Part shown: positions 26,299 to 39,285 of the stretch, one piece after another
How positions within the stretch are numbered: position 1 is the stretch's first letter
Layout: each line of letters begins with the position of its first letter
Assembly (NCBI GenBank): GCA_938031175.1
Contig: CALHGZ010000014.1
Location: forward strand, 1-53,518
Source of the DNA: Candidatus Kapaibacterium sp.
GTDB taxonomy: Bacteria; Bacteroidota; Ignavibacteria; Kapaibacteriales; UBA2268
Direction of reading: 5' to 3'
Length of the DNA stretch: 53,518 bases
Made by a program: the position numbers and the translations under genes
Notes under the pieces: model-generated
Database searches by the model: none
Told to the model about the DNA's origin: nothing
Seen by the model: the letters and a program-made list of their open reading frames with translations, nothing else

Positions 26299-26696
26299 TA
26301 GAAAAAATTGACCATATCGGTATAGCAGTTAAGGATCTGGAAAATTCCTTTGCAAAATTTAAAAATATATTCAACATCAGCAATTATCATCAAGAAACCG
26401 TTGAGGAACAAAAAGTAAAAATTATTTCATTTCTAATTGCTGATGTTCGAATCGAATTAACTGCTCCTACTGACCAAGATTCACCAATTCATAAATTTCT
26501 TGAAAAGCGAGGAGAAGGTATTCATCACATTGCCTTTAAAGTAGATAAAATAATAGAAGAACTCGATAAACTAAAAAATTTAGGAATAAATTTAATCAAT
26601 GATAGCCCAGTTGATGGTGCACATAATATGAAAATAGCTTTTTTACATCCTAAATCAACAAATGGAGTATTAATAGAATTATGTACAGAAAAGTAA
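26295..26696 (+). CDS. mce: Methylmalonyl-CoA epimerase
   Basis: 133 residues, a vicinal-oxygen-chelate protein. It starts at TTG 26295, overlapping the preceding TGA, with AGGA upstream. Metal-site residues are the His in IDHIGIAV, the His in GIHHIAFKV and the Glu in GVLIELC. It interconverts R and S methylmalonyl-CoA between propionyl-CoA carboxylase and mutase, neither of which is in the window. Its last 16 bases overlap the next gene. Confidence 0.92.
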   Translation: MIEKIDHIGIAVKDLENSFAKFKNIFNISNYHQETVEEQKVKIISFLIADVRIELTAPTDQDSPIHKFLEKRGEGIHHIAFKVDKIIEELDKLKNLGINLINDSPVDGAHNMKIAFLHPKSTNGVLIELCTEK

Positions 26697-28378
26697 AATT
26701 AATCATCAAACTTATCTTGCTACATTTAGTAGCTATTAATTTACACGAAACATCTGCACAAGCAGATTTGATAAGCATAGCCAAAACTGAATTAAACCGA
26801 GCGATGGAATCGCTCAAAAAAGAACAACTGCCACCATATTTTATCTCATTGAACATTACAGAAACATATACAATTACATTAACCTCATCATTTGGAAATT
26901 TGCGGAACGAAAATGAAAACCGCAGAAGAATTTTAGATATAGATCTTCGTGTCGGCGACTACCAATTCGATAATACACATATAATAAGAGGTGAAGCATT
27001 TAGCTTTGGAAGATACAGCGAAATTATCGAATTACCAATCGAAAATAACCCTGAAGCAATCAAAATTGCAATATGGAATGCAATAAACCAAGAATATAAA
27101 TCGGCAGTTGAACGTTACCAGAAAGCTTTAACTAACCAAGCAGTAAAAGTTAGAGAAGAAGATACATCAGCTGACTTCTCAAAAGAAAATCCCATTAAAT
27201 ATATCGGTAAGCCTTTACAAATTAAAATTGATAAAAATTACTGGATTAATAGAATTAAAGGTTTATCTGCTCATTTCAAAGGGAACGACTGGCTTTATTC
27301 AGGTAATGTCAGATTTTCATTCGAAATAAATGACAAATACTTCATTAGCTCAGAAGGATCCGAATTATACTGGCCCGAAACAAGCACAAGAATCAGCATC
27401 AATTCATACACCAAAGCTGATGATGGTATGACCTTACCTTTGTACAAAAGTTATTTTGCTTTCCACCCTGATAACTTACCAAAAGATGAGCTTATACAAC
27501 AAGATATTTACAAAATGATTAAACTTCTATCTGAACTTCGCAAAGCCCCATTGGCTGAGCCATATTCTGGTCCGGCAATATTGTCTGGCGAAGCTGCAGG
27601 TGTTTTTTTCCATGAAATATTTGGTCATAGAGTTGAAGGTCATAGAGAAAAAGACCCTAATCAAAGTCAAACATTTAAGAATCAAGTCGGGACCAAAATA
27701 CTTCCTGAATTCATCAATGTAATTTTTGACCCTACATTGAGAAAGATTGGTAATCATGAATTATCAGGATTCTACCCTTATGATGATGAAGGTGTCAAAG
27801 CCCAAAAAGTTGTAAGCGTCGAAAAAGGTATTTTCAAAAATTTTCTTATGTCCCGCTCCCCTATCGCTGACTTTCCAAAATCGAATGGGCATGGACGTAA
27901 AGAACCTGGATATAAAGCTGTATCACGTCAATCGAACTTAATTGTCGAAGCTGTTGAGAAAGTTCCAGTCGAAAAACTAAGAGAATTGCTACGTGAAGAA
28001 TGCAAAAAACAAAATAAACCTTATGGACTATTCTTCGATGTCGTCCAAGGCGGATTTACATTTACCGGGCGAACAATACCAAATGCCTTTAACGTTGATC
28101 CAATCATCGTTTATAAAGTTTATCTTGATGGAAGACCTGATGAACTAGTAAGAGGTGTTGATTTAATTGGAACTCCACTTGCAACATTCGCTAATATTTT
28201 AAAAGCTGGCGATGATTTGGGTGTTTTCAATGGTATATGTGGTGCTGAATCCGGTGGTGTACCCGTTGCTGCAGTCTCACCAAGTTTACTTGTATCACTT
28301 ATAGAAGTTCAACGCAAACAAAAATCTCAAGCTAAACCACCAATACTTCCTGCACCAACAACGAAAGGAATACAATGA
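26681..28378 (+). CDS. Exported TldD-like metalloprotease (HExxxH present)
   Basis: 565 residues against about 480 for cytoplasmic TldD. A signal peptide precedes ETSAQ near residue 27. The zinc motif is H311-E312-I-F-G-H316, followed by RVEGHR, and the C-terminal beta-sandwich has DDEGVKAQ, SNGHGR and GAESGGVPVA. TldD proteins pair with an inactive TldE to open and cleave peptides. This one carries the active-site motif and is followed, with a 4-bp overlap, by a paralogue that lost it. The N-terminal 200 residues (MESLKKEQLPPYFI) are shared with that paralogue. Likely periplasmic; the substrate is unknown. Confidence 0.88.
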   Translation: MYRKVKLIIKLILLHLVAINLHETSAQADLISIAKTELNRAMESLKKEQLPPYFISLNITETYTITLTSSFGNLRNENENRRRILDIDLRVGDYQFDNTHIIRGEAFSFGRYSEIIELPIENNPEAIKIAIWNAINQEYKSAVERYQKALTNQAVKVREEDTSADFSKENPIKYIGKPLQIKIDKNYWINRIKGLSAHFKGNDWLYSGNVRFSFEINDKYFISSEGSELYWPETSTRISINSYTKADDGMTLPLYKSYFAFHPDNLPKDELIQQDIYKMIKLLSELRKAPLAEPYSGPAILSGEAAGVFFHEIFGHRVEGHREKDPNQSQTFKNQVGTKILPEFINVIFDPTLRKIGNHELSGFYPYDDEGVKAQKVVSVEKGIFKNFLMSRSPIADFPKSNGHGRKEPGYKAVSRQSNLIVEAVEKVPVEKLRELLREECKKQNKPYGLFFDVVQGGFTFTGRTIPNAFNVDPIIVYKVYLDGRPDELVRGVDLIGTPLATFANILKAGDDLGVFNGICGAESGGVPVAAVSPSLLVSLIEVQRKQKSQAKPPILPAPTTKGIQ

Positions 28379-30129
28379 AAATAAAATATTTCATAATATT
28401 ATTTTTCTTCTTTACTATTTCATTCTCATCAGCAAAAGAGGTTTTATTACAAGCTATGCGAGATGAAATCAAACGATCTATGGAATCATTACAAATCGAG
28501 AAATTAGATAAACCTTATTACATCGAATATACATTACGCATTAATACAAGCTATCATATTGAAGCTTCTTTAGGCAGCTTGATCAACGACCAAACAACCC
28601 AAACAGCCCGATTAAATGTTTCTGTCAGAATCGGCGATTATAAATTCGATAATTCTAATTTCTTTGATTTTGGTTTTGCTTTTTTCGGAAGCGGTGATGA
28701 TGAAGAAAATTATCGAAACAGAACGGTTCCTTTAGAATTAGATTACAGTTCATTACGCCATGAACTTTGGCTTGCTACTGACGCTGCATATAAACAAGCT
28801 ACAGAAATATATACAAAAAAATTAGCAACTTTACAAAATCGAATTCGAACCGATACAACCCATGATTTTATCTATATTGAACCAGAAAAAAATTTTTATA
28901 AGATTTCTTATCCACATTTTGATAAAGAACGCTTCATAAATTCTGTCAAAAATGTATCAAAGATATTTATAAATTTTCCTGAGATACAAAACTCTAAGGT
29001 AATATTTGAATACATTCCCGAAACCATACTGTACGTTAATAGTGAAGGACGAGAATACATAAAAAGTGAATTTCATAGTGGTTTTGAAGTGGTGGCTCAC
29101 TCCCAAGCTGATGATGGAATGCCTCTTTCCAATTTTTACTCTGTTTATGCAAAATTTCCTGATGACCTACCAAACACCGATTCACTATTAAAAGCAGTCA
29201 AATTAATAGCCGAAAAATTAATCGAACTTAGAAAATCACCAATTATTGAAGAATCGTATTCCGGTCCAATCCTTTTCGAAGGACAGGCTGCATCCGAGAT
29301 TGTAGCACAAATTTTTGCACCAAATCTTGTTGCAGTTAGACCTCCACTCACAGAAAGTGGAATACAACAGACCAATCGCTCTTCTGCTTTCCAAAATAAA
29401 ATTGGTGGTAGAGTTTTACCAGAGTTTATGTCAATCAAGGCTGACCCCACAATTAATAAATTTAACAAGACTTTGGTAATTGGTAATTATAGCATTGACG
29501 ATCAAGGTGTTAAAGCTCAAACAGTTGAATTAGTTAAAAACGGTTATTTGAAAAACCTTTTATCAGGACGTACACCAACAAAACGTGTGAAAACTAGCAA
29601 TGGGCATTTCCGTAGTGGTGGAGCCATGCTCAGTACAATATTAATCGAATCAGAAAAAGAATATTCTAAAAACAAAAATGAACTGAAAAAACATTTGCTT
29701 AAATTAGTTAAAGATAGAGAATTGCCCTATGGAATAATTGTCAGAAAAGTTCTGAATCAAAATGTACAGTTTACAACATTAAGACGTTCTGCCGGTAACC
29801 TTTTCATAAGTTATCAAGCAGAACCTAAAATAAAAATAATAGAAGCATATAGAATCTATCCTGATGGTAGAGAAGAATTAATAAGAGGCGCCGAAGGTAG
29901 TGGATTTACTCCACAATCCTTTAAAGATATCATATTATGTGGCCAGGATAAGTACGCGTTAAATTACCTTGCACCATCAATAACATCACCATACTTAAGT
30001 GGTGGAAGTCAATACATTGGAGCTACCATAATCAGTCCCGATTTGTTATTTGAAGATGGTGAAATAAATAAAATTGAAGAAGATTTTCCGAAACCCCCAT
30101 TGTATTCAACACCTTTAATAAAGAATTAA
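28375..30129 (+). CDS. Exported TldE-like partner lacking the zinc motif
   Basis: 584 residues, signal peptide ending SFSSA near residue 20. Homologous throughout to the preceding protein: MESLQIEKLDKPYYIEY near the start, then SYSGPILFEGQAA, LPEFM, DDQGVKAQ and TSNGHFRSGG. At the zinc site H311, E312 and H316 are replaced by A311, Q312 and P316 at identical residue numbers, so it cannot be an active HExxxH protease. By analogy with TldE it probably forms a heterodimer with the upstream protein. ATGA overlap joins the two genes. Confidence 0.85.
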   Translation: MKIKYFIILFFFFTISFSSAKEVLLQAMRDEIKRSMESLQIEKLDKPYYIEYTLRINTSYHIEASLGSLINDQTTQTARLNVSVRIGDYKFDNSNFFDFGFAFFGSGDDEENYRNRTVPLELDYSSLRHELWLATDAAYKQATEIYTKKLATLQNRIRTDTTHDFIYIEPEKNFYKISYPHFDKERFINSVKNVSKIFINFPEIQNSKVIFEYIPETILYVNSEGREYIKSEFHSGFEVVAHSQADDGMPLSNFYSVYAKFPDDLPNTDSLLKAVKLIAEKLIELRKSPIIEESYSGPILFEGQAASEIVAQIFAPNLVAVRPPLTESGIQQTNRSSAFQNKIGGRVLPEFMSIKADPTINKFNKTLVIGNYSIDDQGVKAQTVELVKNGYLKNLLSGRTPTKRVKTSNGHFRSGGAMLSTILIESEKEYSKNKNELKKHLLKLVKDRELPYGIIVRKVLNQNVQFTTLRRSAGNLFISYQAEPKIKIIEAYRIYPDGREELIRGAEGSGFTPQSFKDIILCGQDKYALNYLAPSITSPYLSGGSQYIGATIISPDLLFEDGEINKIEEDFPKPPLYSTPLIKN

Positions 30130-35181: not shown

Positions 35182-38100
35182 TTAGATTTTAAAAAAAATC
35201 TTTATTTGTTGATCTAATTTAAGATAATATAGTCCTGATGGTAAAAATGATATATCAATTCTTCTTGATATTGTAGCATCTAAAGTATTCCTTAAAACAG
35301 TTGTATTCAAAACACATCTGCCTAAAATATCATAAATGCGAATATCGCTGTTTGCTGAATGAGTGTTGCCTTTTATTTGTAATTCGATATAATTCTCAGC
35401 CGGATTTGGGATTATATCAAATAAGTAATATTCACTGATACTACTAATATTTGAATGGAAATAATAAATTGAATCGGATCGGATTGAATTGCATCCATTA
35501 TCAGCAATTGCCTCTACCGAGTAAAAACCTGATTGTGTTGCCAAATAAAAATTATTTTCTGTTATCCCTATTTCAATATTATCTAAAAACCAGCGATTTT
35601 TCCCTTTAAAATCAGAAAATATGGTGTCATTCTTTAATGATATATGCGGTCTATCTGGAATCTCTAAAACGGTGAACGAAGCACTTGCACGACTCAAACA
35701 GCCATTTTGATTATCATAAATATATTCAAATTCATAAGTTCCAGGTTCCAGTTCTTTGGGATATAGTTTATTGTCAATAATTCCAGATCCTACATATCTT
35801 CCGCCTGAAGGTTGAGCAATATCCAAAATGATTTCTTGAGAATTGTTGCATACATTCAATTCTTGATTAAATAAAATTTTCTCTTTATTCTTTAATTGTA
35901 CTGAAAACACAGTTGTATCTGTACATTCACGATTGCCAAGAGTTTTAATGAGAGTGATTTTACCATATTTGGCATAATTCCAACTTACTTTTATGTTGTT
36001 GCCATTATTTTCTAAAATTTCTCCATTTTCAACAACCCAAAAATATTGATAATCATTGGAGGTATTGGCAAAATATTCTATTATTTCTTCCGAACATACG
36101 ACTGAATCACCAGAAATCACTGATTTTTTAAATTCAATAACATTAATTTTCAATTCTGTTGAATCCTTACATCCTGTGACCAAATTAATACGAACAATTT
36201 TTAAAATTCCTATACCCTTTACCATCCATTTAATACGCATAGAGTCACTTTTGTTGACATCAAGTAAAGAGCCTTGATTTGTGTACCAATATGTTTCAAC
36301 ATCAGCTTGCTTTGTGGTTTTATATGAATAAATTGTATTGTGACAAACGTTCATATCTCCTATCAAGCTTAGGTCAGGATTTTGCAGGACATTTACAATA
36401 AATTCAGTCGAATCTTTACATCCCGTTGAATTATTCCTCTGGATTAATTTCAATTTACCTATACCAGGTTCATTCCATACAATTCTTACTTCTCTGTTTG
36501 AATTAAGTCCGATAATTCTACCATTATCAACTTCCCACATAAATGCCAGCAATGAATGAAAATTAGATGAATAAACATATTCTCGGTTTTGACATACAAT
36601 GTTATTACCTGTTATTTCAGGCTTAGGAAGCATATTGACAGTGATATTCTCTGTAATTGAATCCTTGCATCCTGTTTCTGAATTAATCATAATTAGTTTT
36701 AATGATGCATTTTGAACATTGCTCCAAAGGATTTCAACTTCATTTACATTATTATTCCCCTGGATACTGCCACCTGCAACAATCCATTGATAATTAAAGC
36801 CTGTTAAATTAGGTGCTGAATACTTATGAATACTTCTTTCGCAAACATTGAATTCGCCAGAAATAGCTGGTTTTGGTAAAGGATTAATTGTTATGTTTTT
36901 GGAGATCGAGTCACTACAATTAGTCAGATTGTTTGTTTGAATAAGCTTTATGTTACCTGTCTCAGTTGTACCCCATTGAACTTTTACTTCATCTCCTGTT
37001 ATCGGACCTACAATTGTACCACCGCTTGCATACCATTGATTTGTTACTCCCTGACCAGTATTGGCAGTATAAGTTTCAATAGTTTTAGCACAAACGGTAA
37101 AATTTCCAGAGAAATCTGGTTCTGGCAATGGATTAATAGTTATTATTTTTGTTATTGAATCTGTACAACCCGTAGTATCATTTGTTTTTACAAGCTTGAG
37201 CGTACCGGGAGAATCATTATCCCATCGAACTGATACATTAGATGAATTTGTAGAGCCTTGAATGACTCCACCATTTACAGACCAGCTATGAGAAAATCCT
37301 GTTGGATTTGTAGCATTATATGAAACGGTTGATTTATTGCATACAGACAAAAGCCCAGTAAATTCTACTTCTGGAATTGAATAAACCTGAATAAAGTTGC
37401 TCTTTATAATCGTATCTCTCCCTGAATTGTTTATAGCTATTAATCTTACAGAATAGTTACCTACTTGGTTATAAGTGTGCTGAGGATTTCTCGTTGTGTA
37501 ATCATTAATTCCATCATTATTTACATCCCATAGCCACTGAGTAGGGTTATTTTCACTTTGGTCATTAAATTGTACTGTCAAACTACCACAACCAGCGCGT
37601 GGACTTGCACTAAAATCAGCAATTGGTACAAATGTAAAGCCACAATTATTACTATTTAAAGGCTGCATAGCTCCATAACCACATCTACCAGATGGAGTAG
37701 AGTAATTCATAACATATTCACCCCCAGCAACATCCGACCAGCTATTGAGTTGTCTTTTAATAGTTCCATAATTAATTGCGTAATGCATAGAATAACTTTG
37801 ACCTATTACGTGCCCTAACAAATGTGCGTGACCAAATTCGTGCAAAATCACGCTTTCAGCATCGGATTGATTATTTGATGGGTTACCCGGTCCCCAATTC
37901 CAATTTACATTTGAATTCATAATTATATCCACTTCATTTAAAAACCAGTTATTTCCCCCAGAGCAACTGAACCAATAACTGTATGTATAAGCTAATACTC
38001 CATTTGGAACTGGACAAGAATTCGTTGACATAGATAAAATGTTTATACCATCGGAACCCGGACAAGTGATATTACTTGTACTATTCGCAAAATCAAATCT

Positions 38101-39105
38101 AACATATGTTTGACATCGCCATGTTTCTAATGCACGCATAAAACAATTCACAGCCGCCTGATTTGAATATAAATTGTTATTAAATGTAAATCTGTAACCA
38201 CCGTTATTATTATAATTTACAAGATGAATATAATAATTATCATTTACATTCAATAAAGCAAATCTGACAGTCAAAGACGATGATGAAGTCGCAGAGTTCC
38301 CATTATTATCAATCACTTGAATTGTTCCTGTTCCAGCTTTGGATGGCACTTTGAGTTTGATTAAAGTATCTGTCCAAGTAATGAATGAATTTGAAGGAGC
38401 TGATATATATGAAGCACCGCCATTATCGGCATTTCGAAAATTTACTGTTCCACGGACATTGCCAAAACCTGTACCTCTTATAGTTAGAGTATCTCCTGTA
38501 CCTGCATTGATTGTTGTTGGGCTAAAGCTTGTTATATTAACAAGTATCCTGTCTTGATTATAACTTTTAATTATTTTAAGCGATTTTTTCCTGTTAATTT
38601 CCTTATATTTGATACCGCTTATTGATTCTATTTTTTTGTAAAATTCATGAATATTACTATATCTCTCTAATACACTTATAGCCTCATCGCCAGTGAATTC
38701 GTAAAAACCCTGTACTGAAGAAAATAATTCATATTTATCTTTCACATCATTAGCTCTGACAGCGAAACCGGCTGGAATAAGGAAAAAAATACCATATTGA
38801 CCAATTTCCATTGATTCATCGGGACAGATTGTAATCCTTCTATCCCCTAATTGACCACCAATTGTAACTAATTTTATGATTTCTCTTGATGTCTGCCCTT
38901 TGAATATTTTATAAATCTTAATATTGTAATCTGTAAATATCATGGTTTCAGATTCATTAAAGTAGGATTCTTCGCTTAGGACTTCGCCTTCAATAATCAG
39001 TTCTGAAAGAGTTATTTTTTCCTCAAGGCTCACTGGAATAAATTTAGAATATGATTTTATAACTGTGAGTAATAAAAGTATGCAAATTAAGGTTATATTT
39101 TTCAT
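35182..39105 (-). CDS. Large secreted metzincin protease with TIG, PKD and Ig-like repeats, T9SS cargo
   Basis: 1,307 residues from ATG 39105, which gives a proper signal peptide; an upstream frame to 39210 adds 35 polar residues and is rejected. The order is: signal peptide; N-terminal region about 22-185; IPT/TIG domain about 190-282; matrixin-like protease with zinc motif HEFGHAHLLGH from residue 422 and a Met-turn candidate in QSYSMHYA; PKD domain about 497-585 (WLWDVNNDG, NPQHTYNQVGNYSV); six tandem repeats of about 83 residues; and a T9SS sorting tail (IIPNPAENYIEL, then FLPSGLYYLKL). It is exported by T9SS and probably cut and attached to the surface. Confidence 0.9.
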   Translation of the reverse strand: MKNITLICILLLLTVIKSYSKFIPVSLEEKITLSELIIEGEVLSEESYFNESETMIFTDYNIKIYKIFKGQTSREIIKLVTIGGQLGDRRITICPDESMEIGQYGIFFLIPAGFAVRANDVKDKYELFSSVQGFYEFTGDEAISVLERYSNIHEFYKKIESISGIKYKEINRKKSLKIIKSYNQDRILVNITSFSPTTINAGTGDTLTIRGTGFGNVRGTVNFRNADNGGASYISAPSNSFITWTDTLIKLKVPSKAGTGTIQVIDNNGNSATSSSSLTVRFALLNVNDNYYIHLVNYNNNGGYRFTFNNNLYSNQAAVNCFMRALETWRCQTYVRFDFANSTSNITCPGSDGINILSMSTNSCPVPNGVLAYTYSYWFSCSGGNNWFLNEVDIIMNSNVNWNWGPGNPSNNQSDAESVILHEFGHAHLLGHVIGQSYSMHYAINYGTIKRQLNSWSDVAGGEYVMNYSTPSGRCGYGAMQPLNSNNCGFTFVPIADFSASPRAGCGSLTVQFNDQSENNPTQWLWDVNNDGINDYTTRNPQHTYNQVGNYSVRLIAINNSGRDTIIKSNFIQVYSIPEVEFTGLLSVCNKSTVSYNATNPTGFSHSWSVNGGVIQGSTNSSNVSVRWDNDSPGTLKLVKTNDTTGCTDSITKIITINPLPEPDFSGNFTVCAKTIETYTANTGQGVTNQWYASGGTIVGPITGDEVKVQWGTTETGNIKLIQTNNLTNCSDSISKNITINPLPKPAISGEFNVCERSIHKYSAPNLTGFNYQWIVAGGSIQGNNNVNEVEILWSNVQNASLKLIMINSETGCKDSITENITVNMLPKPEITGNNIVCQNREYVYSSNFHSLLAFMWEVDNGRIIGLNSNREVRIVWNEPGIGKLKLIQRNNSTGCKDSTEFIVNVLQNPDLSLIGDMNVCHNTIYSYKTTKQADVETYWYTNQGSLLDVNKSDSMRIKWMVKGIGILKIVRINLVTGCKDSTELKINVIEFKKSVISGDSVVCSEEIIEYFANTSNDYQYFWVVENGEILENNGNNIKVSWNYAKYGKITLIKTLGNRECTDTTVFSVQLKNKEKILFNQELNVCNNSQEIILDIAQPSGGRYVGSGIIDNKLYPKELEPGTYEFEYIYDNQNGCLSRASASFTVLEIPDRPHISLKNDTIFSDFKGKNRWFLDNIEIGITENNFYLATQSGFYSVEAIADNGCNSIRSDSIYYFHSNISSISEYYLFDIIPNPAENYIELQIKGNTHSANSDIRIYDILGRCVLNTTVLRNTLDATISRRIDISFLPSGLYYLKLDQQIKIFFKI
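35891..37385 (-). repeat. Six tandem ~83-codon Ig-like repeats in the metzincin gene
   Basis: Each unit starts with a Pro-rich linker and G-x-x-x-VC, continues with a W-x-x-x-x-G-x-I core and V-x-I-x-W, and ends with G-x-L-K-L-I-x-x-N-x-x-T-x-C-x-D-S. Two Cys per unit sit at fixed positions and probably pair. Units diverge from N- to C-terminal, the sixth being least like the rest, so these are old duplications. Confidence 0.8.
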
Positions 39106-39285
39106 TTTAAGATTATTATCTGTATTCGTGGAACATATGTTTATTACGTTTTTATCGTCAATTTGATGAAATAGTTGATTTCTATACGATAAAACTGAGT
39201 ATTTATACAAGTTAATTTTTTATTAAGGCTAAAAAATTCATTTTTTTATTATTTTCGAGAAATATTTCTAATTGAAAACTTAAAT

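Follow-up and report, generated by a model that had tools for sequence, protein, structure and literature searches.

A putative exported TldD-like metallopeptidase pair with one active and one dead subunit in the Kapaibacteriales

The window analysed here, a stretch of 53,518 nucleotides from Candidatus Kapaibacterium sp. (contig CALHGZ010000014.1), carries two adjacent genes encoding TldD-like proteins: P1 (565 aa; 26681..28378, + strand), with an intact metal site, and P2 (584 aa; 28375..30129, + strand), in which this site is dead. We consider it probable that the two proteins constitute an exported metallopeptidase of two subunits, which encloses its own active site and operates in the manner of E. 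coli TldD/TldE; its task, we guess, is to clear peptides from the cell envelope. P2 probably does not derive from TldE. The evidence consists of the conserved active and dead sites, the pairing and natural fusion of both proteins, their putative export signals, phylogenetic trees and predicted structures.

An active and a dead metal site

The stop codon of P1 and the start codon of P2 overlap in an ATGA sequence (28375..28378, + strand), as a preliminary description of this stretch had recorded. P1 contains the metal-binding and catalytic motif HEIFGH (H311, E312 and H316; 27611..27628, + strand), which aligns with H262, E263 and H267 of E. coli TldD, while C520 (28238..28240, + strand) is the counterpart of C454, the third metal ligand of that enzyme according to Ghilarov et al. 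2017 (PMC5810440), from which the ligand roles are taken; the preliminary description does not mention this residue. At the dead site of P2 (29305..29322, + strand), A311, Q312 and P316 share residue numbers with the P1 motif, just as initially described, and also its alignment columns, and the column facing TldD C454 and P1 C520 is occupied by Ala. Both translated open reading frames (ORFs) match the PmbA/TldD C-terminal domain PF19289 of Pfam (92.3 bits for P1 and 52.9 bits for P2, cut-off 22), and a phmmer search of the PDB matches P1 to E. coli TldD (E 1.8e-12). The N-terminal domain PF01523 was not detected by sequence in P1 or P2, and scores against the NCBIfam TldD/PmbA equivalogs were below the curated cut-off (at best 87.9 bits versus 635 for P1 and 36.8 versus 635 for P2).

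To judge conservation of the motif pattern, two sets of homologues are available. When 296 genomes of the phylum were searched at the protein level, 49 gave matches, in many cases weak ones to other Tld proteins; P1-level matches occur in 30, with 25 genomes belonging to the window's order, three more to its class and two to other classes. With one broken copy (genome G128) dropped and one fused copy (locus L043) read apart, HEIFGH is kept in 28/28 P1 sequences and HExxxH is absent from all 27 P2 sequences. The active/dead pattern is not due to chance. In addition, a profile scan of named genomes returned at least 572 related stretches, from which 80 loci were kept. Among the matches listed, a scope that applies to all counts for named loci, these belong to Kapabacteria, Ignavibacteria, other Bacteroidota, Acidobacteriota, Gemmatimonadota, Latescibacterota and Aminicenantes, along with an Opitutae and a gammaproteobacterial metagenome-assembled genome. 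HExxxH and the Cys in its CGA context are present in 79/79 P1 sequences, a count that is biased by the scan pattern [AS]GVFFHEI, which holds part of the motif, unlike the 28/28 count and the P2 counts; the one remaining locus, L100, encodes a fusion. HExxxH is found in none of the 67 adjacent P2 sequences that cover the site, three more being cut before it. A second protein retaining the motif, which the preliminary description regarded as damaging to its proposal, was thus encountered in neither set.

Across the whole order, the P1 query found some match in 122 of 123 genomes and a P1-level match (E 1e-90 or better) in 116. In six genomes only weaker matches turned up, perhaps to canonical TldD, to fragments or to P2; the last genome had no match. 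Three genomes (G333, G376 and G377) have two P1-level matches each.

Pairing, natural fusion and predicted structure

Of the 30 P1-bearing genomes of the phylum, 28 also encode P2. In one exception (G113) P1 runs off the contig end; in the other (G128) P1 is split over three frames (L055:8405-10200) and no P2 was found in the genome. Sequencing errors may account for the broken frame, but the joint loss also fits mutual dependence of both proteins. The two genes are adjacent in 19/28 genomes, one of these carrying them fused, and P2 adjoins P1 in 70 of the named loci, or 71/80 counting one fusion, in line with the initial expectation that the genes are usually linked. For eight of the nine named loci without an adjacent P2, this gene is located elsewhere in the genome. 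A small ORF (about 187 aa) that is hydrophobic close to its N terminus is found in ten loci (L038, L039, L079, L085, L088, L090, L102 and three others). In L102 it is located between P1 and P2, which accounts for intergenic gaps of about 0.55 kb.

In two loci, L043 and L100, P1 and P2 are encoded by a single open frame (1146 and 1183 codons, respectively) with a short linker and no second signal. Open frames of 1175 aa (G320) and 1189 aa (G318), from genomes sharing their genus code with the genome of L043 (G086), suggest by their length further fusions, and three other genomes of this genus code have separate P1 and P2 genes.

The predicted structure of the window's P2 has a predicted local distance difference test score (pLDDT) of 89.9 and a predicted template modelling score (pTM) of 0.88. 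VIA-align superimposes residues 19-568 of this model on TldD with Z 29.9 (438 residues aligned, root-mean-square deviation 3.7), compared with Z 23.1-26.5 for TldE/PmbA-type chains. The L100 fusion, modelled as a single chain of 1104 residues after removal of the signal, reached pLDDT 82.5, and its halves match TldD with Z 28.4 (P1 half, 1-522) and Z 31.4 (P2 half, 540-1092). Hence, the models of P2 and of both fusion halves are predicted to adopt the canonical Tld fold, N-terminal domain included. The preliminary description had attributed a surplus of about 100 residues over the E. coli proteins to a shared N-terminal region. This holds in part: once the signals are subtracted, P1 exceeds TldD (481 aa) by about 58 residues and P2 exceeds TldE (450 aa) by about 114. 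An additional N-terminal domain is rejected, however, since the alignment of the P2 model with TldD extends over residues 19-568, indicating that the region is a diverged canonical domain with insertions.

Whether the two proteins form a TldD/TldE-like complex, a check put forward in the preliminary description, was addressed through the natural fusion, which was predicted as two TldD-like halves with pTM 0.82. In our view, two halves of equal size would hardly yield a value this high without a defined packing, and the model thus supports packing of both halves; together with the natural fusions, it suggests a stable P1-P2 heterodimer enclosing the active site. On the other side of the balance, the alignment behind this model held 13 rows, 12 of which were read through inter-gene stops, and packing was judged from pTM. 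Aligning the fusion with rows of P1 or P2 alone placed the P2 rows on the P1 half, and this alignment was discarded. Also against a heterodimer is that P1 and P2 are non-adjacent in 9/28 phylum genomes, although both are present there. P1 might then be active as a homodimer or monomer, with P2 in a separate binding role, all the more as one report (PMC5810440) describes homodimerisation of E. coli TldE alone and an active TldD homodimer from Sulfolobus. Given the near-constant co-occurrence of P1 and P2 even when unlinked, the natural fusion and the packed fusion model, we regard this alternative as rather unlikely.

Putative export signals and probable origin of the dead subunit

Both proteins look Sec-exported. 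The putative signal peptide of P2 (residues 1-20, SSA^K; 28375..28434, + strand), with a cleavage site assigned by eye, passes a strict and a lax test, both of which are crude and too permissive to prove export. The putative signal of the window's P1 (residues 1-26, TSA^Q27; 26681..26758, + strand), likewise assigned by eye, fails both, with charged or polar residues in its core, which speaks against export of this particular protein. It is nevertheless accepted as an atypical signal on the strength of its orthologues and of an AxA^Q-like site in 18/28 P1 sequences. In the phylum set, 21/28 P1 and 24/27 P2 sequences pass the strict test, and 26/28 and 27/27 the lax one. For named loci, counted over sequences of 540-625 aa only, the numbers are 56/72 and 51/55 (strict) and 71/72 and 54/55 (lax). 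By comparison, none of 21 TldE-type proteins passes either test, and neighbouring ORFs pass in 361/1027 (strict) and 556/1027 (lax) cases. By a loose pattern, the AxA^Q-like site is also found in 12/27 P2 sequences; sites of this kind agree with the Bacteroidetes Q-rule, for which Ignavibacterium album has a Q-value of 77% (PMC5837995). The initial claim of signal peptides in both proteins therefore appears to hold for P2 and, more weakly, for the window's P1. No publication on an exported TldD was found in the open literature, going by titles and abstract openings.

In a tree of 65 sequences, P1 and P2 each form one group, and a split with 100/100 support sets the two jointly apart from TldD, TldE and related proteins, long stems separating the groups. 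They remain together in a tree of the C-terminal domain from which the metal-site columns had been removed and three divergent sequences left out. On this tree, a single dead clade joining P2 with TldE is rejected by the approximately unbiased (AU) test (p 3.27e-5), which carries the same long-branch bias as the model. The clamp region points in the same direction, with a median of 29 residues in P2 (range 13-38), 21 in both P1 and TldD, and 9 in TldE; the brace region counts 13 residues in P2, 18 in P1, 20 in TldD and 10 in TldE. Because the trees join P1 with P2 apart from TldD and TldE, the dead site of P2 is probably a separate event: P1 and P2 are probably sister groups, with site loss in P2 independent of that in TldE. 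Active/dead asymmetry thus seems to have evolved twice in the Tld fold.

Three results run counter to this origin. P2 alone has only 62/71 support in the C-terminal-domain tree. A P2 profile finds 1vl4 (1.3e-5) and TldE (5nj5_B; 1.8e-4) before TldD (0.014), with values from 1.3e-5 to 1.9e-4 over the TldE/PmbA-type chains, and Foldseek ranks TldD and TldE/PmbA alike for P2. Combined with the long stems, the profile result could mean that P2 stems from TldE and that P1/P2 is a copy of TldD/TldE that became exported; the grouping of P1 with P2 would then be an artefact, caused by convergence or by gene conversion between them. Such a TldE origin of P2 is made less credible by the joining of P1 and P2 in both trees, the second built without metal-site columns, by the AU test and by a clamp segment that TldE lacks. 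We judge that the trees heavily outweigh the contrary profile result, and consider descent of P2 from TldE very unlikely. The idea of an envelope version of TldD/TldE, put forward in the preliminary description, can accordingly be kept as far as a conserved, apparently exported active/dead pair is concerned, but the pair is not simply TldD/TldE, since the trees set P2 apart from TldE.

Proposed function and comparison with other Tld pairs

In the proposed pathway, a duplication within their own lineage would have given rise to P1 and P2, followed by loss of the site in P2. Each subunit would use a Sec signal of its own to cross the inner membrane and would fold outside the cytoplasm. H311, H316 and C520 of P1 would then hold one Zn or Fe, with E312 acting as the general base, while P2, as the catalytically dead twin, would close the shell. 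Only unfolded or short peptides could thread into the resulting chamber, where they would be clipped from the N terminus. Sequence evidence carries the two sites, the pairing, the natural fusion and the separate origin, and predictions support the folds and the way the halves pack. The nature of the metal, the chamber, processive clipping and the compartment are what we infer; by analogy with the E. coli enzyme, the metal of P1/P2 is expected to lie enclosed and unfolded peptides to be clipped there. As for the physiological role, our guess is clearance of envelope peptides, that is, ATP-independent disposal of unfolded or cleaved ones.

The active site of P1 also argues for some reserve, as the clamp-tether residue Lys456 of TldD is replaced by Ala and Asp272 mostly by His, so that it would differ in detail from that of TldD. 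The subsite residues W256, V396 and I398 are changed as well. With Lys456, these changes would suit a heterodimer that shares the Tld fold but acts as an amide hydrolase on an envelope small molecule or a non-peptide amide, like the N-deacetylases of the family. The general base and the three metal ligands are unaltered in P1, however, and the spread over most genomes of the order and several phyla fits a housekeeping peptidase better; we therefore think an amide hydrolase unlikely.

A further alternative is a leader peptidase for one secreted ribosomally synthesized and post-translationally modified peptide (RiPP) or peptide-derived product. According to two sources (PMC5810440; PMC10885120), E. 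coli TldD/TldE takes part in the maturation of RiPPs, microcin B17 among them, although it is encoded outside their clusters. YcaO and MNIO occur in only 2/41 and 7/41 genomes of the order, respectively, and neither is present in that of the window, which argues against a RiPP-bound role. On these counts a dedicated RiPP leader peptidase is rejected as highly improbable; no RiPP gene was noticed by eye among recurrent neighbours either, RiPP classes beyond YcaO and MNIO not having been searched. More generally, gene context gives no lead to a substrate: the commonest neighbour clusters, present in 41, 35 and 29 of 118 loci, look like housekeeping genes when judged by eye from their sequences. 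Elsewhere in the window, an ORF of 1342 aa (35182-39210, - strand) contains HEFGHAHLLGH, a metzincin-like HExxHxxGxxH motif. We take its C-terminal end to resemble a type IX secretion sorting domain.

The proposed envelope peptidase P1/P2 is not the only active/dead Tld pair in this genome. Outside the window (contig C4, locus L205:2810-5652), a canonical TldD of 505 aa and an adjacent dead TldE match both PF01523 and PF19289. Like P1/P2, this pair is adjacent, active/dead and probably exported, but it is canonical by sequence, and its sole signal is of the twin-arginine (Tat) type and located on TldD, which starts with MKNRRDFLK; TldE has none. As TatC is present in the genome, this TldE could be exported folded with TldD on one signal. 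An RRx[FL] motif near the start occurs in 21/36 TldD-type and 0/21 TldE-type proteins, with at least the one in L213 looking spurious. Only four of 41 genomes of the order have a PF01523 pair, three more giving weak partial matches. Other Bacteroidota loci (L194-L201) have TldD-like genes with a Tat-like signal beside unsignalled TldE-like genes, three pairs in a row at L198. As in P1/P2, active and dead paralogues lie side by side and the active one has an export-like signal; in contrast, the motif is HESVGH, and the dead partner is short (438-458 aa) and lacks a signal. In four aligned TldD-like sequences of these loci, Asp replaces the TldD Cys454. With the pair on contig C4, envelope versions of the true TldD/TldE kind seem to exist besides P1/P2.

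A broader reading, which we put forward tentatively as possible though on balance doubtful, is that active/dead Tld peptidases with a hollow interior evolved on two occasions, each time from a symmetric ancestor, and came to be exported to the envelope in two ways. Because Sec unfolds its cargo, P1 and P2 would each need a signal of their own, whereas a single signal on TldD would suffice with Tat, which carries folded complexes, so that TldE rides along. P1/P2 would then be a core ATP-free peptide-disposal chamber of the envelope in the order and in parts of the Acidobacteriota and Gemmatimonadota. If right, two separate lineages of one fold would each have rendered one of two identical subunits dead, allowing the role of a dead subunit to be tested by comparison, beyond E. 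coli. It would also mean that an uncharacterised envelope peptidase is near-universal in one order, and possibly that one genome holds two export solutions for the same machine, one relying on Sec and two signals, the other on Tat and a single signal.

Among the closest known systems is E. coli TldD/TldE (PmbA; MEROPS M103; structures including 5NJ5, PMC5810440). P1/P2 resembles it in having HExxxH and a remote Cys in only one subunit and a dead partner, and, according to the models, in its two-domain fold. Unlike in E. coli, both P1 and P2 have putative Sec-type signals, P1-P2 fusions exist, the N-terminal domain is not recognised by PF01523, and the clamp-tether Lys and the Asp are replaced. 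In addition, P2 groups with its active partner P1 rather than with TldE.

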